64,000 nucleotides of DNA from Clostridium sp. GTDB taxonomy: Bacteria; Bacillota; Clostridia; Clostridiales; Clostridiaceae. A program made the translations under genes and the position numbers. Location: NCBI RefSeq assembly GCF_022482905.1, contig NZ_JAKVOI010000001.1, positions 2,109,958 through 2,173,957 on the forward strand. Reading direction: 5' to 3'. The notes beneath the pieces are model-generated. The model saw only the letters and a program-made list of their open reading frames with translations. It did not search any database and was not told the origin of the DNA. Of this stretch, positions 32,929-45,615 are shown piece after piece; position 1 is the stretch's first letter; every line of letters starts with the position of its first letter.

Positions 32929-33981
32929 TTATGCCGCAGTAGTATTTATTATCAAAAGTTCCATTTCAACTTTCTGGTTTACAGGCAGATTTTTCATCTT
33001 GTATTCCGTATTCATACAGAGCTCAACAGCACGCTTAAGCTGTTTAAAAGTAAACTTCTTGTTCTGATTTACCATTATGCCATAGGCATAATCGGACCTA
33101 ATTCCAAGCATGTTCATTATATCCTTTTTCTGCATTTTGTTATTAAGTGCGATTTTCATCTTGAGAAGTATACCAAACTGTCTCTCTACCATGGTCAAAA
33201 TATAACTTATCTTGATTCCCTTATATATAAGTTCATCCAGAACGGAAAGTGCCTCCCTAACTTTTTTGTCTGCCATGGGATTTACCAAATCAAATATGTC
33301 TTCATCACTACTCCTTACAAACAGTTCTCTTATGTCGTCTCTGGTTATATCCCTTCCACAGGTATAGCTGCAAAGTTTTTCCACCTCATTCTCTATTATG
33401 TTCAAATCTCTATCCTGCATGAGGCTGCAGAATATTCTGAGCTCAACTTTTTTTATATTTGCTTCCCTCTCCTTAAAAAGCTCTGCAACTTTGATTTCCA
33501 TCTGTCTGCCTTTTAATTTATCCACTTTGACAGTACATATCTCTTTATCCTGTTTATCAATTCTATATATCTTCCTGCCGATTTTATCTCTTTTACTCTT
33601 AAAAACGTCATAGAGAATAAGTATACAGTGTTCTGGAATTTTTTTCAAATACCCGCATATATTTTTAAATTCCTTTTCTCCTGACAATTTACCCTTATTG
33701 TCGGAATTGTCATTTATAAAATATGCTCTATAGACAAGAACCACCTTCTTGCTGCTCATAAAAGGGAGCGTCTGGCAGGCATTGACTACAGGTGCAAAAC
33801 TTTCAAGTGAATTCCCGTCAAATTTTATATAGTTCAACTCCAAAAAATTTGAGTCAATAACTCTGTGAACTATCTTTTTTACACATTCATCTATAATTTT
33901 CTCATCAAGCCCGCAGAATACATAACACCTTTTTAAGTTCCCCTTTTTTATATTTTCCTCAAAAGTAACTGTATCTATCAT
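32929..33981 (-). CDS. holA: DNA polymerase III subunit delta
   Basis: Clamp-loader subunit that opens the beta clamp. The 350 residues show the HolA pattern: the N-terminal LKRCYVFCGLDEKIIDECVK (AAA-like without a working Walker A), DLNIIENEVEKLCSYT, DDIRELFVRSSDEDIFDLVNPM, and a C-terminal helical collar. It lies immediately downstream of comEC, the usual order in Firmicutes (comEC-holA-rpsT). Confidence 0.94.
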   Translation of the reverse strand: MIDTVTFEENIKKGNLKRCYVFCGLDEKIIDECVKKIVHRVIDSNFLELNYIKFDGNSLESFAPVVNACQTLPFMSSKKVVLVYRAYFINDNSDNKGKLSGEKEFKNICGYLKKIPEHCILILYDVFKSKRDKIGRKIYRIDKQDKEICTVKVDKLKGRQMEIKVAELFKEREANIKKVELRIFCSLMQDRDLNIIENEVEKLCSYTCGRDITRDDIRELFVRSSDEDIFDLVNPMADKKVREALSVLDELIYKGIKISYILTMVERQFGILLKMKIALNNKMQKKDIMNMLGIRSDYAYGIMVNQNKKFTFKQLKRAVELCMNTEYKMKNLPVNQKVEMELLIINTTAA

Positions 33982-34002: not shown

Positions 34003-35775
34003 TCATCTAATTCTAATTGCCCTGTTAAATATTATAACATAGGTTATACTTTTATCGAGGGGATTTTCATACCGATATGAGGATTTATTGCTTGTATACT
34101 TTGGTATATAAATTGATTTTCTGCTCTTGAAAGCTTCAATTTCATCCAATTTTCCGGTACCAAGAACGAAATTCAATTGTCTTCCATCATTATATAAATT
34201 TACATTCATGGAGTTGTTATTCTGAAGACTTATATTTGCAAAACTGCTTTTATCCATGAAATAATTATATTTTGCCCTGGGATTGGTTACAAGTCTGTTT
34301 ATTTCCATGGAATCCCTTATGTCAGTTACCCAGCTGGAATAAGTCGTATCATAATTGCATACCATCAATTTATCGAATCCGCTGTTTAAAATCACCGCCT
34401 CTCCTCTAGTGGAATTCAGAAAGGTTATTTCCGTCAGAAAACTATAGCTCTCTAAAAATACACCCAAAAGCATCAACGCGGGAAGATATTTGATTTTCCT
34501 GCAGCCTGCCCTGTAAAGAATATATGCCATGTGGGAAAACAATATAACGATACCCTCCATGTAGCTTAAGCAAGCTACATCCGAACACAGCTTCAGCATC
34601 AAAGAAGCTGCACCTTCCGATGCTGTCAGCACCATATTGACACAAAAAGAAAGTAAATTGAAAAGTGGTTTTACAAATGAGACCAAAAGAGCTGCATTCC
34701 CCAATACAACAATTACCGAATAGAGGGGAAGAAGAATCAGATTCCCGATTATGGATATATAACTGAAGCTTTGAATTGTAAAAGCAATATATGGCATGGA
34801 ATATATCTGTGCAGACAGGTCAAGTCCTATACAGGAACTTAATTTTTCAGGAAGCATATACAGCATTTTTGAAATACTTCTATAATATAAAATTATACCG
34901 AGAGTAGATAAAAATGATAATCCAAATCCTATATCAACTATATAATAGGGTTTTACCATCATCAATACTACAGCTGAAAGACTAAGTGATGAAATACTGT
35001 CATATTCTCTAAAAATCGCTCCAGACATCTTGAATACAAGTATCATTATAAATGATCTCATTGTCGCTGCAGACATCCCTGTAAAAAAGGCATATACTGC
35101 TGAAAAAAGTACTGCTCCCTTGAATCCAAGCATGACCTCAACGGCCTTGTATATTATGGCCATATGAAAACCTGAAACACTCACAGCATGAACTACACCT
35201 AATTTTTGAAATTCCATGTTTTTATCAGAATCAATATACTTGGTATCTCCGTAGCATACAGCCATGACTACAGAGGTTCTGTCCTTTCCAAGCATATCTT
35301 TGAACTTATTGTAGATGTATCTTTTATATTCATAGGAATAATATACAAAGTCTTTTTTCAACAATTTGTAGTTTTTTATATTGTACCTTCCACATATTCC
35401 CCTTGAAAAATCCCTGTCCGTTTCAAAGCTGCCGGAAGCATCTATTTTGCATCCTTCCTCCAAAGCCTGTATATTCCCGCTTAATATTACCTTTCTTCCT
35501 TTTACATTTCCTATCATATAATAATCTTTATTTTGAAGTATCCTTATCTCGATATTTTTCCCCGGATACAGGCTGAAATAGTTGAACAGGCTTATTGCTG
35601 CAAGGACAAAAAATAAAGCATTCAAAAGGAAAAACTTTATTTCCAGGGTAGTAACATATATTACAAAAAATAAAACAGCAATGGCTATGCCTATAATGAA
35701 ATTATCGATAAATTCCAGAGCGGCCAGGCAGCCCATTGCTGTAGAAACTGCATAGAATACCAACGGTCTTTTCAT
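34003..35775 (-). CDS. comEC: ComEC/Rec2 family competence channel with a reduced C-terminus
   Basis: Integral membrane protein for passage of single-stranded DNA during transformation. The 590 residues contain an external OB-like domain (about 60-150), the competence domain with many membrane helices, and its family motifs VVHAVSVSGFHMAIIY and GMSAATMRSFIM. Most ComEC proteins end with a metallo-beta-lactamase domain of about 250 residues carrying HxHxDH; here only about 135 residues remain and no such motif is seen. AGAGG upstream supports the ATG at 35775 over the GTG at 35784. comEA is encoded separately at 44.8 kb. Confidence 0.9.
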   Translation of the reverse strand: MKRPLVFYAVSTAMGCLAALEFIDNFIIGIAIAVLFFVIYVTTLEIKFFLLNALFFVLAAISLFNYFSLYPGKNIEIRILQNKDYYMIGNVKGRKVILSGNIQALEEGCKIDASGSFETDRDFSRGICGRYNIKNYKLLKKDFVYYSYEYKRYIYNKFKDMLGKDRTSVVMAVCYGDTKYIDSDKNMEFQKLGVVHAVSVSGFHMAIIYKAVEVMLGFKGAVLFSAVYAFFTGMSAATMRSFIMILVFKMSGAIFREYDSISSLSLSAVVLMMVKPYYIVDIGFGLSFLSTLGIILYYRSISKMLYMLPEKLSSCIGLDLSAQIYSMPYIAFTIQSFSYISIIGNLILLPLYSVIVVLGNAALLVSFVKPLFNLLSFCVNMVLTASEGAASLMLKLCSDVACLSYMEGIVILFSHMAYILYRAGCRKIKYLPALMLLGVFLESYSFLTEITFLNSTRGEAVILNSGFDKLMVCNYDTTYSSWVTDIRDSMEINRLVTNPRAKYNYFMDKSSFANISLQNNNSMNVNLYNDGRQLNFVLGTGKLDEIEAFKSRKSIYIPKYTSNKSSYRYENPLDKSITYVIIFNRAIRIR

Positions 35776-35822
35776 AAACGGCACCTCTGCCTACAATTAT
35801 GTCCAGAACAAATGCAGTATAA

Positions 35823-38435
35823 TCAGTCATTATAATAATTTTCTTTATCAAATTTATAGAACAAACCGAATAAAAGCCATATCAAAGCAGCTGCAAAAAC
35901 AATTGCCCAGTAAACAATGTCAAATAAATTATTGAATTTATCAAGTAATACGGCAGCCAACAGCTGAAGCATAAAACTAATTATTATTATAAAATTGGAA
36001 AGTTTATTTTTAAACAGCATACTATTTGAAAAACTATATGTAAAAATTACTGCACATATATTCAGGATTATAAACGGTATATTGCCTGAAAATTTACATC
36101 CCAGAAAATCGGCACATTGAAAGGCAATAAATGCCCATAGGCCCATTAAAAATCCACTAAATACAACAAAGTTTATTCTATCCTTGACAATATTTTTATT
36201 TATACTATAACTGTTGTATTCCGGAGATTCATCATCATATTGACATATAATCGCCATGGATGACAAGAACATAACAACAGTATTGAACCATATTGATCTA
36301 AAGAAAATTCCTTCCTCAATGCCAAATCCACTGCCATACAATGTTCCCATAAGTAAAAATACCAGAAATCCGAAGCTGCAGGTTGTTATATACACTATCA
36401 TCTTTCTTATCGCTTTTACTATTTTTCTCGAAGCTTCTATCAAGTTAAGCAGATTCATAAAGTCTATATTCTTTATCAATATATCGCTTAGTTTTTTCAC
36501 AATATTGCTTCCCGTATTGGCTATACCTATATTTGACATACTAAGTGCAGGCAAATCTGTCAATTTCCATCCAGTTATAGCTGTTATATATCCATATTCT
36601 TTTAAAGCCTTTATAATTTGAATCTTATGGTTTGAATTGATCCGTGAAAAAATGCTTATCCTTTCCCCGATACGCTTGAATTCTTCATCATCCATATTAT
36701 CCATCTCAACACCGGATAATATCTCATTGAGTCTTTTCACAATTCCAAGCTTTCTTCCTACCGCCAGGGCAGTTAATTTACTGTCTTCAGTAATTAGGAC
36801 GGGCTTTATAGAAAGAGCCCTGGATTTTTTTATAGATTCCTGTGCGGTTTCCTTTAACTTGTTGTTAAATCCTATCAATCCTGCAAATACAAGATTACTT
36901 TCTACATTCTCTTTCTGACTCGGTTCATAATTGAAGTTCCTGTAGGCAAATCCGATAACATTCAATGAATCATTTGACATATTTATATCAGCATCACGTA
37001 TGGAATTTATATCATCCTCCGTTATTTGAACCTCAACTCCATTTTTCAAAATATGTGTGCATCTTTCAAGTATGGCATCCACCGCTCCTTTTGAATTGGC
37101 CCTGTATTTTTTATCTACTTCATTTACCGTAGTCATTATACGCCTGTCAGTATCAAAGGAAATCTGGAATAGTTTTTTGTGATTCTGTTGAACTTCCTTT
37201 CTGTAAAGCCCATACTGTTCTGCAAACCTTGAGACAGAAGTTTCAACTAGATCATCTTTTGAATTTTCATTCTCCAGTCCGTCAGATTTTATATCATTGC
37301 ACAACAATCCTATATTCAACATTCTGTATAAGTGTTCGTCCATTCCCTCTCTCAGAGTTTCTTCATCGATATCAATAAATCCCTTGCTGCCATATGCCTT
37401 CACTATGTCCATTCTTTCTTTAGAAAATCCACCCACTTTATCAGTGCATACAGCAGAAACCCTGGAGAATTTCTCAACACTTAGAATATTTTTGAAAATT
37501 ATATCTTTCTTTTTTAGCCTGCTCAATAATATATTGCTCATCAAATACGTTATAATGCAAAAACCTATTGGAAAAGAACTTATCATTATAAGCACAGAAC
37601 GAATAGACATATATGAGCTATCTCTATATATTCCATACCTGAATAAGTTCACAAATAAAATACTGCATATAGAAAATTTAATAAACATGTCCAGTATACT
37701 GTTCAAATTTGACTTGAAAGAAGTATTTTTTTTATTTTCCTCGAGAAGCAGCTTCAATATACCTGCAATTTCAGTCTTCATTCCAACAGATACCACTATT
37801 CCTGTAGCATCTCCTTTGACAACCACCGAGGACTTGAAAAGCATATTTTTCATATCGGACAAATTAATTTCACTATCTTCAATTTTAGGCTCATATTTAT
37901 CTGATAGAAATTTTTCTCCTGTAACAGAACATTCATCCACCTTCAGCTCGCTACTTTCAATAATCCTCATATCAGCAGGTATGGATTCACCTGAACCAAC
38001 AATTACAATATCTCCTACCACCAGTTCTTCCGATTGTATCTTTAATGTCCTGCCATTTCTTATTACTCTTGCATAGCCTGAATTCAATCTCTGTAGTTCC
38101 TTTATATTCTTTTCCTTTTTATGCTGCCCAAGGGCTACACATATGACATTTATCAAAACTATGCTTAGAACTACAGCTGCTGATAAAAACAATTTTAGAT
38201 ATAGCAGTATCCCAAAACCTGCAGCAAAAAACAAAACCCAGATATCCCTGAATTGTATGAATATAAGCCAGATAAAGTTTTTGGTGGCAGGTATAGTTAT
38301 TTTATTGCTTCCATATTTTTTTCTGCTCGGTTCTATCTGTTCATCATCAAGTCCATAGTAACTGCTGCTGTTTAATTCCTTTACAATCTCACTCCATGAT
38401 CTTTTATACCATTTAGTCATATATTTTCCATTCAC
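35823..38435 (-). CDS. P-type ATPase-like protein with degenerate catalytic motifs (probable pseudo-ATPase)
   Basis: An 870-residue protein with the full layout of a P2-type cation pump: cation-ATPase N-terminal domain (1-50), paired membrane helices, actuator (about 110-235), helices 3 and 4, phosphorylation and nucleotide domains (about 315-650), and a C-terminal membrane bundle. Several invariant motifs are altered. DKTGT reads DKVGG at 332-336 (Asp kept); the helix-4 PEGLP reads SFPIGF near 287; TGD reads TED at 549; DPPR reads FNNK; TGDGVND reads TGWKLTD at 621-627, replacing a Mg-binding Asp by Trp. TGE at 172 and KGA at 449 remain. ATP-driven transport is therefore doubtful, though the frame is intact. 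Start may be GTG 38435 or ATG 38420. Directly upstream of comEC. Confidence 0.85.
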   Translation of the reverse strand: MNGKYMTKWYKRSWSEIVKELNSSSYYGLDDEQIEPSRKKYGSNKITIPATKNFIWLIFIQFRDIWVLFFAAGFGILLYLKLFLSAAVVLSIVLINVICVALGQHKKEKNIKELQRLNSGYARVIRNGRTLKIQSEELVVGDIVIVGSGESIPADMRIIESSELKVDECSVTGEKFLSDKYEPKIEDSEINLSDMKNMLFKSSVVVKGDATGIVVSVGMKTEIAGILKLLLEENKKNTSFKSNLNSILDMFIKFSICSILFVNLFRYGIYRDSSYMSIRSVLIMISSFPIGFCIITYLMSNILLSRLKKKDIIFKNILSVEKFSRVSAVCTDKVGGFSKERMDIVKAYGSKGFIDIDEETLREGMDEHLYRMLNIGLLCNDIKSDGLENENSKDDLVETSVSRFAEQYGLYRKEVQQNHKKLFQISFDTDRRIMTTVNEVDKKYRANSKGAVDAILERCTHILKNGVEVQITEDDINSIRDADINMSNDSLNVIGFAYRNFNYEPSQKENVESNLVFAGLIGFNNKLKETAQESIKKSRALSIKPVLITEDSKLTALAVGRKLGIVKRLNEILSGVEMDNMDDEEFKRIGERISIFSRINSNHKIQIIKALKEYGYITAITGWKLTDLPALSMSNIGIANTGSNIVKKLSDILIKNIDFMNLLNLIEASRKIVKAIRKMIVYITTCSFGFLVFLLMGTLYGSGFGIEEGIFFRSIWFNTVVMFLSSMAIICQYDDESPEYNSYSINKNIVKDRINFVVFSGFLMGLWAFIAFQCADFLGCKFSGNIPFIILNICAVIFTYSFSNSMLFKNKLSNFIIIISFMLQLLAAVLLDKFNNLFDIVYWAIVFAAALIWLLFGLFYKFDKENYYND

Positions 38436-39175: not shown

Positions 39176-40099
39176 ATGCCGAAGTATATTTTGAAAAGAT
39201 TAGTTTACAGTGTCATTACAATCTGGATTGTAATATCCATAACCTTTTTGTTGATGCACTTAATCCCAGGCGGTCCCTTTGACGATGAAAAGAAGCTTCC
39301 ACCTCAGATTAAAGCTAACTTGGAACAAAAATTTGGACTGGATAAACCGCTCAGCAAACAATATACAACATATCTGGGCAATGTGGTATTACATGGTGAA
39401 CTCGGTCCATCCATGAGATATGAAGGTAAAACTGTAAACGAAGTTATATCTCAGTCATTTCCAGTGTCTGCCAAAGTAGGTATACTTGCTGTCTGTTTTG
39501 CTCTAATATTCGGCCTGTTTATGGGTATAATTGCAGCCCTGCATCAAGGCAAATGGCAGGACAGTCTTGCAATGCTCATATCAACACTTGGAGTAACTGT
39601 TCCTAACTTTGTAATGGCTACTTTCTTCATTTATTTTTTTGCCGTTAAACTTGGATGGTTTCCTGCAGTTGGACTGGATACTCCTTCAGGTTATGTACTT
39701 CCATCTGTTGCTCTTGGTGCATATTCTATGTCATTTATAGCCAGACTGTCAAGATCAAGTTTGCTTGAAGTAATACGACAGGACTACATAAAAGTGGCAA
39801 AAGCAAAAGGATTGCCCCAAAGCATAATAATATACAAGCATGCCCTGAAAAACTCGCTTATACCTATAGTTACATATATAGGACCATTATTTGCAGGAAT
39901 ACTTACAGGAAGCTTTGTAGTTGAAAATTTATTTGGAATACCAGGTCTTGGAAGAGAATTTGTCCAGAGCATATACAATAGGGATTATACTACCATATTG
40001 GGTGTCACTATATTTTATAGTGCATTTTTAATAATATGCAATCTAGTCGTAGACATATTATATGTAATAATTGATCCAAGAATAAAACTTGAATCCTAG
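39176..40099 (+). CDS. oppB: Oligopeptide ABC transporter permease OppB
   Basis: Inner permease of a peptide importer, 307 residues. The BPD-type N-terminus MPKYILKRLVYSVITIWIV with the first helix is typical, followed by PGGPFDDEKKLP and FGLDKPLSKQY. The EAA-like loop is visible near residue 200 (DYIKVAKAKGLPQSIIIYKHAL), the site that contacts the ATPase, and the C-terminal DIIYVIIDPRI-type end is present. GGGGGT precedes the ATG. First gene of opp B-C-D-F-A. Confidence 0.95.
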   Translation: MPKYILKRLVYSVITIWIVISITFLLMHLIPGGPFDDEKKLPPQIKANLEQKFGLDKPLSKQYTTYLGNVVLHGELGPSMRYEGKTVNEVISQSFPVSAKVGILAVCFALIFGLFMGIIAALHQGKWQDSLAMLISTLGVTVPNFVMATFFIYFFAVKLGWFPAVGLDTPSGYVLPSVALGAYSMSFIARLSRSSLLEVIRQDYIKVAKAKGLPQSIIIYKHALKNSLIPIVTYIGPLFAGILTGSFVVENLFGIPGLGREFVQSIYNRDYTTILGVTIFYSAFLIICNLVVDILYVIIDPRIKLES

Positions 40100-40110
40100 G
40101 AGGTTAGAAC

Positions 40111-41025
40111 ATGGAATTACCAAAGGATGAATTCGAGAAAGTATCAAAAAAAGAAAAAGAATCTGAAGCCATAGTAAGACCAAATATATCCTACTGGCAG
40201 GATGTATGGAGAAGATTGAAACTCAACAAACTGGCCATGGCCGGTTTAATATTTGTAATATTTATAACTTTACTCGCTATATTTGGTCCAATTTTATCAA
40301 AATACAACTACTACAGCCAGGACCTGAATATGGCAAATTTGCCGCCAAGCGCTGCCCACTGGTTTGGTACAGACAAATTCGGAAGAGATATATTTGTAAG
40401 AATATTATATGGTGCGAGAATTTCTCTTACTGTAGGCTATGCAGCAAGCTTATTGAATATAATAATAGGAATAATATATGGAGGGGTAGCCGGTTATTTT
40501 GGCGGAAAAGTGGACAATATAATGATGAGAATAGTGGATATCCTATATTCAATACCAATGACAATCTACGTAATACTCTTCATGGTTGTATTTGGTGCAG
40601 GACTCAAAAGCATTATAATAGCCCTTGCAGTTGCATTCTGGCTTACAATGGCAAGAATTGTAAGAGGAGAAATAATGTCACTTAAACAGCAGGAATTTGT
40701 ACTTGCCGCAAAAACTCTTGGTGCCTCATCCACAAGGATAATTTTTAAGCACCTGATCCCAAACTGTATGGGACCTATAATTGTAACTTTGACTCTTTCA
40801 GTTCCAGATGCCATATTTACAGAATCATTTTTAAGTTTCATAGGACTTGGTGTATCGGCTCCAATGGCCTCATGGGGAACTCTGGCATCTGATGCTCTAG
40901 ATGGTTTTCAATTATATCCACTTCAATTGTTCTTTCCATCTATGGCAATATGTTTGACTATGCTTGCGTTTAATCTGTTAGGTGATGGATTGAGAGATTC
41001 TCTGGATCCTAAAATGAAGAAATGA
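40111..41025 (+). CDS. oppC: Oligopeptide ABC transporter permease OppC
   Basis: Second permease of the importer, 304 residues. A cytoplasmic N-terminal segment (about 1-45) is followed by a first helix LAMAGLIFVIFITLLAIFG, the OppC signature HWFGTDKFGRDIFVRILYGARISL, and the EAA loop QEFVLAAKTLGASSTRIIFKH near residue 195. The end GDGLRDSLDPKMKK is typical. AGGAGG lies before the ATG, 11 bases after oppB. Confidence 0.96.
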   Translation: MELPKDEFEKVSKKEKESEAIVRPNISYWQDVWRRLKLNKLAMAGLIFVIFITLLAIFGPILSKYNYYSQDLNMANLPPSAAHWFGTDKFGRDIFVRILYGARISLTVGYAASLLNIIIGIIYGGVAGYFGGKVDNIMMRIVDILYSIPMTIYVILFMVVFGAGLKSIIIALAVAFWLTMARIVRGEIMSLKQQEFVLAAKTLGASSTRIIFKHLIPNCMGPIIVTLTLSVPDAIFTESFLSFIGLGVSAPMASWGTLASDALDGFQLYPLQLFFPSMAICLTMLAFNLLGDGLRDSLDPKMKK

Positions 41026-41040
41026 TAGGGGGATACATAA

Positions 41041-42060
41041 ATGGATAGATTACTTGACGTAAATAACCTACATACATCTTTCCAGACTTATCTAGGTGAA
41101 GTAAAGGCAGTACGTGGAGTATCCTTTCATCTTGATAAAGGTGAGGCACTCGGAATAGTTGGAGAATCTGGAAGCGGGAAAAGTATAACCATGATGTCAA
41201 TCATGAGACTTCTTCCTGAAAATGGCAAAATAAAAGCAGATAATATAAAATTTTTAGACAAAGATTTGACGGAACTAAGTGACAAACAAATGGAAGAAAT
41301 ACGGGGAAATGACATTGGAATGATATTTCAGGATCCTATGACTTCCTTGAATCCAGTTTTCAAAATAGGCTATCAACTGGCGGAACCACTTATAAAACAC
41401 AGGCATATGAGCAGAGAAGCTGCAAATAAAAAAGTTGTTGAAATGCTGAAATTGGTTGGAATACCCAGTGCTGAAAAGAGAATAAATCAATATCCGCACG
41501 AATTTTCCGGTGGAATGAGGCAAAGGGCCATGATAGCCATGGCCCTCATCTGTGAGCCAAAGCTCTTAATTGCAGATGAACCTACCACAGCCCTAGACGT
41601 AACTATACAGGCACAGATACTTGAACTCATGAAGGATCTAAGAGCCAAGCTTGGCATGTCAATAATATTGATAACGCATGACCTGGGTGTTGTAGCAGAT
41701 CTGTGCAGCAGAATAAATGTCATGTACGGTGGAATGATTATCGAGAGGGGAACAACAAGAGATATATTCTACAGTTCAAAACATCCGTATACCTGGGGAC
41801 TTTTAAGGAGCATACCAAATCCAAAGGAAGATATAAAACAGAGACTGAAGCCCATAGACGGGACTCCGCCGGACCTGCTGAAGCCACCAGTTGGCTGTCC
41901 TTTTGCTCCAAGGTGTGAATATGCAATGAAAATATGTTTGAACAAGATGCCTGAAGCTTTTGAGATAGATACCCAGCATTTTGCTTCCTGCTGGCTCAAC
42001 CATCCAGATGCGCCTAAAATAGACAGGCTAAGTGTAGGGGGTACGGAAGATGAACACTGA
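41041..42060 (+). CDS. oppD: Oligopeptide ABC transporter ATP-binding protein OppD
   Basis: First ATPase of the importer, 339 residues. Walker A GIVGESGSGKS, signature FSGGMRQRAMIAMAL, Walker B LLIADEPTTALD and ITHDLGVVAD are intact. The oligopeptide C-terminal extension contains the Cys pattern GCPFAPRCEYAMKIC and FASCW, which in Opp/Dpp ATPases can bind an iron-sulfur cluster. GGGGG precedes the ATG; the end overlaps oppF by 11 bases. Confidence 0.97.
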   Translation: MDRLLDVNNLHTSFQTYLGEVKAVRGVSFHLDKGEALGIVGESGSGKSITMMSIMRLLPENGKIKADNIKFLDKDLTELSDKQMEEIRGNDIGMIFQDPMTSLNPVFKIGYQLAEPLIKHRHMSREAANKKVVEMLKLVGIPSAEKRINQYPHEFSGGMRQRAMIAMALICEPKLLIADEPTTALDVTIQAQILELMKDLRAKLGMSIILITHDLGVVADLCSRINVMYGGMIIERGTTRDIFYSSKHPYTWGLLRSIPNPKEDIKQRLKPIDGTPPDLLKPPVGCPFAPRCEYAMKICLNKMPEAFEIDTQHFASCWLNHPDAPKIDRLSVGGTEDEH

Positions 42061-43033
42061 TAAACCATTTATTGAAATAAGAAATCTCAAAAAATACTTT
42101 CCCGCAAAGAAATCTTTTTTTGGAAAAGTGACAAGCAATGTCAAGGCAGTAGATGATGTATCTTTTACCATAGAAAAAGGAGAAACCCTTGGATTGGTCG
42201 GAGAATCAGGATGTGGTAAAACCACTACAGGAAGAACCATAATTAAATTATATGAACCAACAGACGGGCAAATAATATACGACGGAGTGGATATATCCAA
42301 ATTCTCTACAAATAAGATGATGCCCTACAGAAGGAAAATGCAGATGATATTCCAGGACCCATATGCTTCTCTGGACTCCAGAATGACTGTAGGCGACATA
42401 ATAGGAGAATCCATAGACATTCACAATCTGATGAAAGGCAAGGAAAGACGGGATAGAATTCAATATCTTTTAAACAAGGTAGGCTTGAACAAGGACCATT
42501 CAAACAGATATCCCCATGAATTTTCAGGAGGCCAGAGACAGAGAATAGGAATAGCAAGAGCTCTTGCTGTGGAACCCGAATTCATAGTATGTGATGAACC
42601 TATATCCGCACTGGACGTGTCAATTCAGGCCCAGGTTGTAAACATGCTTGAAGATCTCCAGGATGATCTGGGACTTACATATCTTTTCATAGCCCATGAT
42701 TTATCCATGGTAAAACATATATCAACCAAAATAGGAGTTATGTATCTTGGAAAAATGGTAGAAATGGCTGAGAGTAATGAATTATACAAAAATCCGCTTC
42801 ATCCATATACCAAGGCACTACTGTCAGCAATACCAATACCTGACCCTGATATGGCTAAAAAGAACAATAGAATAATGCTGGAAGGTGAAACTCCTTCACC
42901 AATAGACCCGCCACCGGGCTGCAGATTCAAGGACAGGTGCAGATATTCAATGAAGAGATGTTCCGAGGAAGAACCTGTTTTAAAGGATATGGGCGGCGGG
43001 CACTGTACAGCCTGTCATCTATATGACAAGTAA
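42050..43033 (+). CDS. oppF: Oligopeptide ABC transporter ATP-binding protein OppF
   Basis: Second ATPase, 327 residues. Walker A GLVGESGCGKTTTGR, signature FSGGQRQRIGIARAL, Walker B FIVCDEPISALD and FIAHDLSMVKH are intact. The C-terminal Cys motif GCRFKDRCRYSMKRC and TACHL is also present. The gene starts inside the last codons of oppD, after GGGGGT, so the two ATPases should be made in equal amounts. Confidence 0.97.
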   Translation: MNTDKPFIEIRNLKKYFPAKKSFFGKVTSNVKAVDDVSFTIEKGETLGLVGESGCGKTTTGRTIIKLYEPTDGQIIYDGVDISKFSTNKMMPYRRKMQMIFQDPYASLDSRMTVGDIIGESIDIHNLMKGKERRDRIQYLLNKVGLNKDHSNRYPHEFSGGQRQRIGIARALAVEPEFIVCDEPISALDVSIQAQVVNMLEDLQDDLGLTYLFIAHDLSMVKHISTKIGVMYLGKMVEMAESNELYKNPLHPYTKALLSAIPIPDPDMAKKNNRIMLEGETPSPIDPPPGCRFKDRCRYSMKRCSEEEPVLKDMGGGHCTACHLYDK

Positions 43034-43097
43034 AACATGCTATATAAGTGTTTACACCATGTAGGCACCTAATATAAAATTTTTAAGGAGGACTATT

Positions 43098-44747
43098 ATG
43101 TTAAAGAACAAATTTAAGATCTTTGCAGTTGCAATGTCACTTACATTTGTAGGTTCACTGTTTGCCGGCTGCGGAGGTTCCAAAAACAGCACTGGTTCAG
43201 ACGGCAAAACCACAATAAAGGTAAACATTGCCGCTGATCCTAGAACAATCGATCCCGGGCTGAACAACTCGGTTGAAGGTGGTCACGTAATTACAAACGC
43301 TTTCGAAGGCTTGACAAATCTGGACAAAGACGAAAAGGTAGTACCTGGTGTTGCAGAGAAATGGGACGTATCAAGCGATGGGCTGACTTATACTTTCCAT
43401 TTGAGGAAAAATGCAAAATGGTCAGATGGAAAAGGTGTTACTGCAAAGGACTTTGAGTATTCCTGGAAGAGAGCCCTTGATCCAAAGACGGCCTCTCAAT
43501 ACGCATATCAGCTTTTCTACCTGAAAAACGGTGAAGCCTATAACCAGGGAAAAGCAACGGCAGATCAGGTAAGTGTTACTGCAAAGGATGACTATACATT
43601 AGTGGCTACACTTCAGAACCCTACTCCTTATTTTCTGTCACTTACATCTTTTCCTACTTATGATCCGGTAAGAAAAGACGTGGTTGAAAAAAATCCAACT
43701 TCATGGGCTACAAAGGCTGACACCTATATATCAAACGGTCCTTACAAAATGGTTGAATACAAGGCAAAGGACAGCTTGAACTTTGAGAAAAACCCCAACT
43801 ACTGGGATAAAAGCAACATAAAGATAGACAGAATTGAATTCAAGACTCTGGAAAATGAAAGCAGCTACTATGCAGCATTCAAAACGGGAGATCTTGATTT
43901 GATCGATAAACCACCTGCTACAGAAGCTCCTAACCTTTTAAAAAGCGGAACAGCAAAGGCTTATCCATATCTTGGTACTTACTACTATGATATAAACGTA
44001 TCTCCTCAAGCCAAGACAATCAATCCTGATGCAGCCAAGGCATTGAGTGATGTAATGGTGAGGAAGGCTTTGAATCTGGCAATAGACAGAACTTCCATAA
44101 CTCAGAAAGTTACAAAATCCGGAGAAGTACCTGCCAGCTCTTTCGTACCCAAAGGTACCAGTGATTCAAATGGAAAAGAGTTTACAGACAAGGAATATCT
44201 TCCAAAAACTGCAGATGTTGCACAGGCTAAAAAACTTCTTGCTGAAGCCGGTTATCCTGGAGGAAAAGGATTCCCTCAGCTGGAAATATTATATAACACA
44301 ATGCAGGGACATCAGAATATAGCCCAAGCAATTCAGGATATGTGGAAAAAGAATCTAGGAATAAATGTAACTCTCAAGAATGTTGAAAGAAAGGTTCATC
44401 TGACCCAGCTTCAGAACCATCAGTTCCTATTGGGAAGAGATGCCTGGATAGCTGACTACAATGATGCAATGACCTTCCTCGATATGTTCACAACTGGTAA
44501 TGGCAACAATATGACAGGTTACTCAAATTCTAAATATGATCAGCTTATAAATCAAGCCAAAGCAGAACCTGACAAAGCCAAGAGAGCTGATTTAATGCAT
44601 CAGGCAGAAGACCAATTGATGATTGATCTACCTATAATTCCAATTTATTACTACACTGAAGTTGTATGTATGAATCCAAAGCTTAAAGATGTCCATATAT
44701 CAAACTTGGGCTTCTTTATCTTCAGAGAGGCACATCTTGACAAATAA
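43098..44747 (+). CDS. oppA: Oligopeptide-binding lipoprotein OppA
   Basis: Extracellular peptide-binding protein of SBP family 5, 549 residues. The signal peptide ends with the lipobox LFAGC, so it is anchored to the membrane by lipid. The family 5 region shows DPRTIDPGLNNSVEGGHVI, AFEGLTNLDKD, AEKWDVSSDGLTYTFHLRKN, AKWSDGKGVTAKDF and ALNLAIDRTSIT. AAGGAGG precedes the ATG. Last gene of the operon, followed by a hairpin terminator. Peptide uptake for nutrition or signalling cannot be told apart here. Confidence 0.96.
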   Translation: MLKNKFKIFAVAMSLTFVGSLFAGCGGSKNSTGSDGKTTIKVNIAADPRTIDPGLNNSVEGGHVITNAFEGLTNLDKDEKVVPGVAEKWDVSSDGLTYTFHLRKNAKWSDGKGVTAKDFEYSWKRALDPKTASQYAYQLFYLKNGEAYNQGKATADQVSVTAKDDYTLVATLQNPTPYFLSLTSFPTYDPVRKDVVEKNPTSWATKADTYISNGPYKMVEYKAKDSLNFEKNPNYWDKSNIKIDRIEFKTLENESSYYAAFKTGDLDLIDKPPATEAPNLLKSGTAKAYPYLGTYYYDINVSPQAKTINPDAAKALSDVMVRKALNLAIDRTSITQKVTKSGEVPASSFVPKGTSDSNGKEFTDKEYLPKTADVAQAKKLLAEAGYPGGKGFPQLEILYNTMQGHQNIAQAIQDMWKKNLGINVTLKNVERKVHLTQLQNHQFLLGRDAWIADYNDAMTFLDMFTTGNGNNMTGYSNSKYDQLINQAKAEPDKAKRADLMHQAEDQLMIDLPIIPIYYYTEVVCMNPKLKDVHISNLGFFIFREAHLDK

Positions 44748-44823: not shown

Positions 44824-45489
44824 CTACCTAACATCAATTTTATCCTTGAGCTTCTCAAAAGTCTTATCTCCTATTCTATCAACATTTTTTATATCCTCTT
44901 TGGATGAAAAATCACCGTTCTTTTCCCTGTAGTCTATTATATTCTGGGCAGTTACATCTCCTACACCAGGTATGCTCTTCAGTTCTTCTAGGGATGCGGT
45001 ATTTATATTTATCACTCCATCTTCATCCAATCCTGATTTACCTTCCGCTGATATACTTTTACCCGACTCTTCTTCCCTCTGTATCTTTTCTATATATATG
45101 TAGTCTTCATCTTTCAACTTTTTAGCTAAGTTTATTTTATAGGCGTCTGCATCATCCTTGAATCCTCCTGAAATTTTAATCAGATCTTCCACTCTGCTGT
45201 CACCTTTCAAACTGTATACTCCGGGTTTCTTTACCTCACCATTTATGTAAACCGTTATATTCCCTGAACTGTTTTTCAATTCTTCACCATTGTTCTGAAC
45301 TTCCTTATAATCTTCCTGTTTGAAAATATTTTCACTATCGGTTATCTTTACAGGTTTTGAATTCTTATAACCTATAAACAGGAAAAATGCAAATGCAATC
45401 AGAATAAATATAGATCCCACAATTTTTCTTTTATATTTATTGCCAACACACCTTTCCGTCCACTTTGCAATTTTATCCAATATAGCCAT
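44824..45489 (-). CDS. comEA: ComEA-like helix-hairpin-helix DNA-binding protein
   Basis: Surface DNA receptor for transformation. About 221 residues: an N-terminal membrane anchor (about 25-45, IVGSIFILIAFAFFLFIGYK), an SLBB-type external domain (VYINGEVKKPGVYSLKGDSRVEDLIK), a linker, and a ComEA helix-hairpin-helix repeat at the end (NINTASLEELKSIPGVGD, then AQNIIDYREKNGDF). AGAGGG upstream favours the ATG at 45489 over 45522. It stands alone, about 9 kb from comEC. Confidence 0.93.
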   Translation of the reverse strand: MAILDKIAKWTERCVGNKYKRKIVGSIFILIAFAFFLFIGYKNSKPVKITDSENIFKQEDYKEVQNNGEELKNSSGNITVYINGEVKKPGVYSLKGDSRVEDLIKISGGFKDDADAYKINLAKKLKDEDYIYIEKIQREEESGKSISAEGKSGLDEDGVININTASLEELKSIPGVGDVTAQNIIDYREKNGDFSSKEDIKNVDRIGDKTFEKLKDKIDVR

Positions 45490-45615
45490 AGGCTTTATTC
45501 TCCCTCTACAAAATATTTGCAATCTATAGAATATTCGTTTAAAATATATATTTACACTAGTTATTTATAATTATTGACAATAAAAAGAAATTATGTCGCA
45601 TCTATTATATTTTTT

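Follow-up and report, generated by a model that had tools for sequence, protein, structure and literature searches.

The gene considered here lies on the reverse strand of a 64,000-nucleotide stretch of a Clostridium sp. genome (contig NZ_JAKVOI010000001.1, positions 2,109,958 to 2,173,957; this whole stretch is hereafter the window), next to comEC and holA, and encodes a protein with the architecture of P-type ATPases and a deeply altered set of catalytic motifs. The observations set out below support well the conclusion that the gene belongs to a comE locus and that its product is a conserved pseudoenzyme descended from a P2A (bacterial Ca2+-type) ATPase. Its parts are as follows (relatives and canonical controls are described further on):

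35823..38420, reverse strand: pseudo-P2A-ATPase gene, read from its ATG start (the open reading frame reaches up to a GTG at 38435); its product has ten predicted membrane helices
37914..37922, reverse strand: TGE loop of the actuator (A) domain (T172-E174), kept, with T in 131, G in 130, E in 93 and D in 29 of the 132 relatives
37560..37574, reverse strand: helix-4 ion-site motif, PEGLP changed to FPIGF in the motif alignment
37428..37442, reverse strand: phosphorylation motif, DKTGT changed to DKVGG (D332-G336), with D351 in 85, K352 in 132 and T353 in 3 of 132 relatives
37101..37103, reverse strand: R445, an Arg of the nucleotide (N) domain in the strand leading to KGA, found in all 132 relatives and in 4 of the 18 canonical controls
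36894..36944, reverse strand: N-domain signature YRNFNYEPSQKENVESN (498-514), in which R499, Y503 and P505 are present in 132 of 132 relatives and in none of 18 canonical controls
36555..36575, reverse strand: Mg-binding and hinge motif, TGDGVND changed to TGWKLTD (621-627), with the final Asp retained

The open reading frame (ORF) at 35823-38435 is unbroken and comprises, from its GTG start, 870 codons followed by a stop, which bears out the intact frame claimed in a preliminary description of this DNA. Translation more likely begins at an in-frame ATG at 38420, which is unchanged across 13 sequences of the genus and, in our own reading, is preceded by an AAGGTG-like ribosome-binding site. 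Promoter and terminator scans gave about the number of hits expected from shuffled sequence and were not used. Pfam scans were applied to the window protein, the 13-member genus alignment and six chosen proteins. The window protein scored above the cut-off with PF00122, PF13246 and PF00690, corresponding to the actuator domain, the nucleotide domain and the N-terminus, respectively, with no match to the HAD hydrolase domain (Hydrolase) or the C-terminal transporter domain (Cation_ATPase_C). The genus as a whole behaves in the same way: Cation_ATPase, which represents the N-domain fold, was found in all 13 members of the scanned alignment, and neither Hydrolase nor Cation_ATPase_C matched any of the 13 at E 0.01. 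Three distant pseudo-ATPases likewise yielded neither domain above the cut-off, with a single Hydrolase match below it in L118. Altogether, Hydrolase exceeded the cut-off in none of the 16 pseudo-ATPases scanned, as opposed to all three canonical controls, in which Cation_ATPase_C was matched as well.

For the motif positions we use the residue numbering of SERCA (D351, T353, G626, D703, N706, K684, D707, R560, F487, K515 and K492). Direct reading of the window protein confirmed most of the changes listed in the preliminary description, namely DKVGG, TGWKLTD (with Trp at the Mg-binding Asp), TED in place of TGD, and FPIGF in helix 4. The DPPR motif is lost, as had been claimed, but the register required correction: the letters aligned with it are NKLK (GFNNKLKE against GMIDPPRE), the FNNK given earlier being one column off. 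Two residues are deleted in the GITGTD region, and the helix-6 Asp column holds Met, this Asp being gone in the pseudo-ATPase sequences shown in the alignment. Retained in the window protein are the TGE loop, the Lys of KGA and the equivalents of SERCA K684 and D707.

All 12 other genomes of the genus that were searched encode a full-length orthologue with 55-64% identity, distinct from the P2A pumps (~30%), and TGWKLTD is found in 12 of the 13 genus sequences, the window's included, with TGYRLTD in the remaining one. Because an orthologue with shared changes is present in all 12 genomes, the motif losses cannot be attributed to chance. A profile search of 206 Clostridiaceae genomes, followed by a search of 225 genomes of the order with a 65-row profile, recovered relatives from 132 of the 206 family genomes (including that of the window), with one copy per genome and 30 of the 46 genus groups represented; the count leaves out a duplicate of the window gene (L011) as well as L257, L271 and L252. 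The ORFs of the 132 copies span 728-909 amino acids, two of them (L222 and L229) running off the contig. A scan of 391 genomes of the class at E 1e-205 produced 16 matches, all from the window's family and including the window's own genome; no members beyond the family were found at this threshold, and weaker ones elsewhere are possible. The comEC locus was inspected in 31 of the remaining 74 family genomes. Two of these carry further dead copies (L257 and L271, motifs read by eye; L257 also lacks K352), one (L252) carries a frameshifted copy beside comEC whose frame breaks after ~520 codons, and 28 show no ATPase similarity in the fetched flank, which in L277, L279 and L270 offers only ~1.7, 2.8 and 3.2 kb of upstream sequence, respectively.

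The ion-site, Mg2+ and core phosphorylation residues are lost across the family. DKTGT is present in none of the 132 relatives; D351 is kept in 85 copies (E, K, N or P in the other 47), T353 in 3, G626 in none (E or D in 126), D703 in 22 (E in 53), N706 in 3 and the helix-4 Glu in 5. No copy keeps more than two of the core five residues (D351, T353, G626, D703 and N706), and 25 copies keep none. Kept in all or most copies are K352 and G516 (132 each), the G of TGE (130), K684 (125) and D707 (119, with E in 12 more). Part of the nucleotide pocket has been eroded: Arg stands at the R560 equivalent in 3 of 132 copies and F or Y at the F487 position in 78; K or R occupies the K515 equivalent in 115 copies, with V, I, T, S or Y in the other 17, and the K492 equivalent in 108. 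Of the features that define a functional P2A pump, the window protein has the fold and the A domain and lacks DKTGT, TGDGxND, the helix-4 Glu and the helix-6 Asp, and Pfam does not recognise the Hydrolase and Cation_ATPase_C domains in it.

A different set of residues has become fixed. R445, R499, Y503, P505 and E512 of the N domain are present in all 132 copies, and E468, F501, E509 and N510 in 131. In 18 canonical controls (L176-L178, L238, five sister-family pumps and nine paralogues), E468 and F501 are absent, R445, E509 and N510 occur in four each, and E512 in all. The same shift is apparent at the level of whole domains. Among the 132 copies, none of the 286 columns in the membrane region (M3-M4 and M5-M10) reaches 90% conservation, and 30 of the 175 columns of the N domain and 21 of the 127 columns of the A domain do, whereas the corresponding figures in the controls, a smaller and less diverged set, are 70 of 286 in the membrane region, 35 in the N domain and 41 in the A domain. 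The membrane region, whose columns are hard to align across the range of the 132 copies, is the least conserved part of the pseudo-ATPase, with two columns reaching 70%. The focus of conservation has therefore left the membrane and phosphorylation regions and now lies on the actuator and nucleotide domains.

The ratio of nonsynonymous to synonymous substitution rates (dN/dS), estimated by the Nei-Gojobori method with our own script, is far below 1. Among 11 genus pairs it amounts to 0.07-0.12 in nine and 0.30-0.31 in two, both from the window's own subclade (G001, G010 and G012); these values are rough because dS is close to or above 1 in such pairs. For comparison, genus pairs gave 0.07-0.14 for the canonical paralogue (nine pairs available) and 0.14-0.33 for comEC. 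In six close pairs, the regional values for the pseudo-ATPase are 0.042 in the A domain, 0.067 in P+N, 0.113 from M5 to the C-terminus, 0.140 in M3-M4 and 0.319 in the N-terminus and M1-M2. In four close pairs of the canonical paralogue, for which the region borders differ slightly, the order is another one, with P1 (0.026), M3-M4 (0.045) and P2 (0.051) most constrained, followed by A (0.072), and N (0.137) least constrained. Hence the fold of the pseudo-ATPase, its A domain and its N domain are held by purifying selection, which has continued after the loss of catalysis (0.07-0.31 across all genus pairs measured).

The neighbourhood of the gene in the window is as follows:

34003..35784, reverse strand: comEC, in which only the competence channel domain is recognised, 38 nucleotides after the pseudo-ATPase gene
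34006..34431, reverse strand: C-terminal remnant of ComEC, the start of which aligns with the metallo-beta-lactamase domain in a profile comparison; no HxHxDH
32929..33981, reverse strand: holA (DNA polymerase III delta), 21 nucleotides after comEC
44824..45522, reverse strand: upstream comEA-like gene, with a TIGR01259 match of 112 bits, under the curated cut-off of 152
39176..44747, forward strand: ABC transporter genes, presumably of the oligopeptide type (named by eye), which part comEA from the pseudo-ATPase gene and are outside the system

This comEC is the single match to the Competence domain in the genome of the window. Across the family, comEC is located downstream of the pseudo-ATPase gene on the same strand and within 699 nucleotides in 130 of the 132 loci (median distance 52 nucleotides; within 60 in 66 loci), the two exceptions being a contig end and L198, which has holA and no comEC match at that place. 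comEC and holA share the strand in 126 loci and lie within 300 nucleotides of each other in 122. In the fetched flanks, tblastn detected comEA in 36 pseudo-ATPase loci, always upstream and in the same orientation (within 800 nucleotides in 11), and did not find it in the fetched 6-7 kb of the remaining ones. With comEC downstream in 130 of 132 loci and comEA upstream, the locus reads comEA-[pseudo-ATPase]-comEC-holA, and this order is likely to be ancestral. In the comEA-comEB-comEC operon of B. subtilis, comEA is likewise the first gene and comEC the last, but the middle gene of the clostridial locus is a pseudo-P-type ATPase, not comEB. A matching OppB gene adjoins the pseudo-ATPase gene in some relatives. 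Records of C. ljungdahlii, C. carboxidivorans and C. tyrobutyricum are among those with the locus. The presence of comEA was tried and rejected as a predictor of the pseudo-ATPase: at E 1e-14, 199 of 206 family genomes match, none above the curated cut-off, and E. coli matches too, so the test is neither specific nor informative.

None of the 130 ComECs encoded beside a pseudo-ATPase has an HxHxDH-type motif (five of these 130 frames are shorter than 400 amino acids), and none of the 39 aligned Clostridiaceae ComEC members matches Lactamase_B. In the profile comparison with the ComECs of a sister family, the alignment enters the first strands of the beta-lactamase-like domain and then stops, which gives the C-terminus of the Clostridiaceae ComEC the look of an eroded remnant. 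In G058 (locus L275), a genome with a contamination rating of 7%, there is an extra ComEC of 816 amino acids with an intact motif, perhaps on a contaminant contig. ComEC orthologues without the beta-lactamase-like domain are known (PMC12455585), and that of S. pneumoniae ComEC is predicted to be inactive (PMC5031224); the Clostridiaceae ComEC, without a nuclease-type domain, resembles such variants. The main texts of these two papers do not mention clostridia, and the term "ATPase" does not occur in that of PMC5031224 nor "P-type" in that of PMC12455585.

In the sister family, HxHxDH is present in 11 of 11 ComECs, and in 8 of the 11 loci a canonical P2A pump is encoded upstream of comEC on the same strand. 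This pump (L231-L234, L237 and L264-L266) shares with the pseudo-ATPase its position upstream of comEC-holA and its orientation, but its DKTGT motif is intact in eight of eight cases, as are the other catalytic motifs in the five that were read, and 0.4-1.3 kb separate it from comEC. In L231-L234 and L237, an ORF of ~71-116 amino acids is found between the pump gene and comEC, and in four of these five there is also an ORF of ~156-172 amino acids that we take, by eye, to be ECF-S-like. In a third family, two loci encode a ComEC with the motif but no pump; for one of these, the upstream sequence spans ~1.2 kb.

In a quick tree of 56 rows that included 35 of the 132 copies, the pseudo-ATPases formed one clade (support of 100 in the Shimodaira-Hasegawa-like approximate likelihood ratio test) with a stem of 1.45 changes per site, so that a single origin is likely. 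The clade is placed beside the canonical pumps of the same family (support 93), with the sister-family pumps outside, although its exact position is uncertain because of the long branches. In G025 and G046, a P2A homologue is encoded ~9 kb upstream of the pseudo-ATPase gene on the same strand, perhaps as a trace of tandem duplication. In the genome of the window (G000), four P-type ATPase matches fall within ~25 kb at genome positions 2024352-2049143, outside the window. The best solved sequence relative of the pseudo-ATPase is LMCA1, and the protein shares with P2A Ca2+-ATPases of the LMCA1/SERCA type (PDB 6zhf and 9euq, and SERCA1a) the fold, the domain order and the ten helices. It differs from them in the absence of core phosphorylation, Mg2+ and ion-site residues, in the new N-domain signature and in its location in a competence locus. 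The predicted model of the window protein (predicted local distance difference test score 86.9, predicted template modelling score 0.83) has ten helices; its root-mean-square deviation is lowest to the E2 forms of SERCA (3.1-3.4 Å over ~848 residues), compared with 8.3 Å over 820 residues for the Ca-bound E1 form of LMCA1.

The preliminary description held that the protein is kept for a non-pumping role, perhaps as a sensor or scaffold or in connection with the adjacent DNA-uptake channel, an interpretation that is borne out in part. The open frames, the low dN/dS and the one likely origin all back a kept, non-pumping protein, and no relative with these changes looks catalytic as far as sequence can tell. 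The connection with the channel stands in genetic terms, with comEC following the gene in 130 of 132 loci and comEA upstream where found. Retention between DNA-uptake genes suggests a second, non-pumping job there. With a confidence just above even, we propose that a catalytically dead P2A pump has been put to new use, anchored in the membrane and without catalytic activity, as a partner of a ComEC that lacks the nuclease. Such a protein would no longer cycle and may stay in one E2-like shape, anchored by its helices. A partner at the inner mouth of ComEC (ComEC itself, another uptake protein or the incoming DNA) would be bound by the A and N domains, together with the new face formed by R445, R499, Y503 and P505. 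In that case the pseudo-ATPase would belong to the DNA-uptake complex as a subunit with a structural or gating task, and might make up for the domain that ComEC has lost. As to the history, it is conceivable, with a probability that we would put somewhat short of even, that the DNA-uptake channel was rebuilt in the ancestor of the Clostridiaceae: ComEC lost its nuclease domain, while a calcium pump encoded nearby underwent duplication, shed its catalytic function and became a dedicated ComEC subunit.

Several observations weigh against this proposal. In 28 of the 31 further family genomes checked, no pseudo-ATPase was found next to comEC; the protein is therefore dispensable, not required to keep comEC. 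The comECs of these 31 genomes, among them the ones without a neighbouring pseudo-ATPase, also lack HxHxDH, so that the two losses are not strictly coupled. comEC is nearly universal (217 of 225 genomes of the order), as are comEA-like genes (199 of 206 genomes of the family), hence comEA presence alone does not predict the pseudo-ATPase. In the sister family, five of the 11 loci were fetched through their pump; the other six were fetched through comEC, and three of these contain the pump. In the five loci read, one or two small ORFs intervene between pump and comEC. Some lineages appear less dead than the window protein, since D351 survives in 85 of 132 copies and is accompanied by Asp or Glu at position 703 in 45, of which 43 also have K684 and an acid at 707. 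Twenty-nine of the 132 frames (for example, L125, L136, L146 and L203) stop before the position of the last helix of the window protein, four of them before the ninth helix (one of the four at a contig end), such that the number of helices varies within the family; the C-terminus is variable too, as 23 of the profile matches listed in the order-wide search continue beyond a stop near the 3' end. Finally, dN/dS is raised in the window's subclade (0.14-0.17 in pairs with the window sequence, 0.23-0.31 in the others), where that of comEC is likewise raised (0.14-0.33) and that of the canonical pump is not (0.10-0.14).

Some of these points would fit a slowly decaying relic that has no function and persists by chance or because the expression of comEC is protected by its reading frame: the lack of the gene beside comEC in 28 of the 31 relatives checked, the frameshifted copy in L252, the long branches, the raised dN/dS of the window's subclade, the 29 shortened frames and the 23 matches running past a 3'-end stop. 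The preliminary description had named dN/dS near 1 together with disrupted copies as the mark of such decay; a disrupted copy does exist, but the ratio is far lower, about 0.1 in the six close pairs and lowest in A and P+N. Moreover, 132 copies have open frames, and a relic would not be expected to gain invariant residues, such as R499, Y503 and P505, that are absent from all canonical controls. Decay was accordingly rejected as the principal explanation, and we retain it as a quite unlikely rival. At the opposite extreme, the protein might still pump with altered residues, given D351 in 85 copies, Asp or Glu at the D707 position in 131, and the combination of D351, acids at 703 and 707 and K684 in 43. 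The near-complete loss of T353 and N706, the absence of G626, the replacement of D351 by E, K, N or P in 47 copies, Trp at the Mg-binding Asp of the window protein, and the lack of a Hydrolase match above the cut-off in 16 pseudo-ATPases make this highly improbable, and on the residue census an active pump was rejected despite the partial acid set.

The remaining alternatives assign the protein other non-pumping roles. As a nucleotide sensor, its N domain would bind ATP or another nucleotide without hydrolysis, and the bound state would gate ComEC or signal energy status. The N-domain fold is indeed kept in 13 of 13 genus members, and K515 and K492 are mostly represented by basic residues (115 and 108 of 132), but a conserved sensor would be expected to keep its pocket, and here Arg is left at R560 in only 3 copies and F or Y at F487 in only 78, and the basic residue at K515 is gone in 17, which weakens a simple ATP-sensor version of the role; we regard a sensor as unlikely. 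The protein could also regulate, as a partner, a canonical P2A pump whose gene lies elsewhere, for instance in a heterodimer or as a dominant-negative brake. A P2A homologue 45-48% identical to a canonical genus pump (motifs not read) is present in all 18 genomes checked, and in G025 and G046 one is encoded ~9 kb upstream of the pseudo-ATPase gene on the same strand. The 18 genomes were, however, picked by hand from the 132, and the conserved neighbour is comEC-holA, so that this role seems rather improbable. As all 18 genomes contain a P2A homologue, the idea that such a homologue is missing where the pseudo-ATPase occurs was discarded. A channel, scramblase or passive transporter built from the membrane domain of the pump would agree with the ten helices that the window protein is predicted, at good confidence, to have, but hardly with a membrane region that is the least conserved part (no column at 90%, two at 70%), with a helix-4 Glu left in 5 copies and the helix-6 Asp gone in the sequences shown, or with 29 frames lacking the last helix; its probability is very low.

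Pseudoenzymes are well known among kinases and proteases. In the literature searched, which lay largely outside subscription journals, we found no P-type ATPase pseudoenzyme described and nothing pointing to this gene; absence from print is thus not established. A large part of one bacterial family nevertheless carries a P-type pseudo-ATPase, and pump counts in these genomes may be inflated because general domain models still call the protein a cation-pump ATPase. The canonical pump of the sister family and the dead versions in 30 genus groups form a natural series in which to follow the loss of catalysis by a transporter and its acquisition of a new conserved face. The position between comEA and comEC provides a testable lead on DNA uptake in clostridia, and, if the pseudo-ATPase has indeed become a dedicated ComEC subunit, the P-type ATPase fold would serve there as a non-catalytic component of a DNA-translocation machine.

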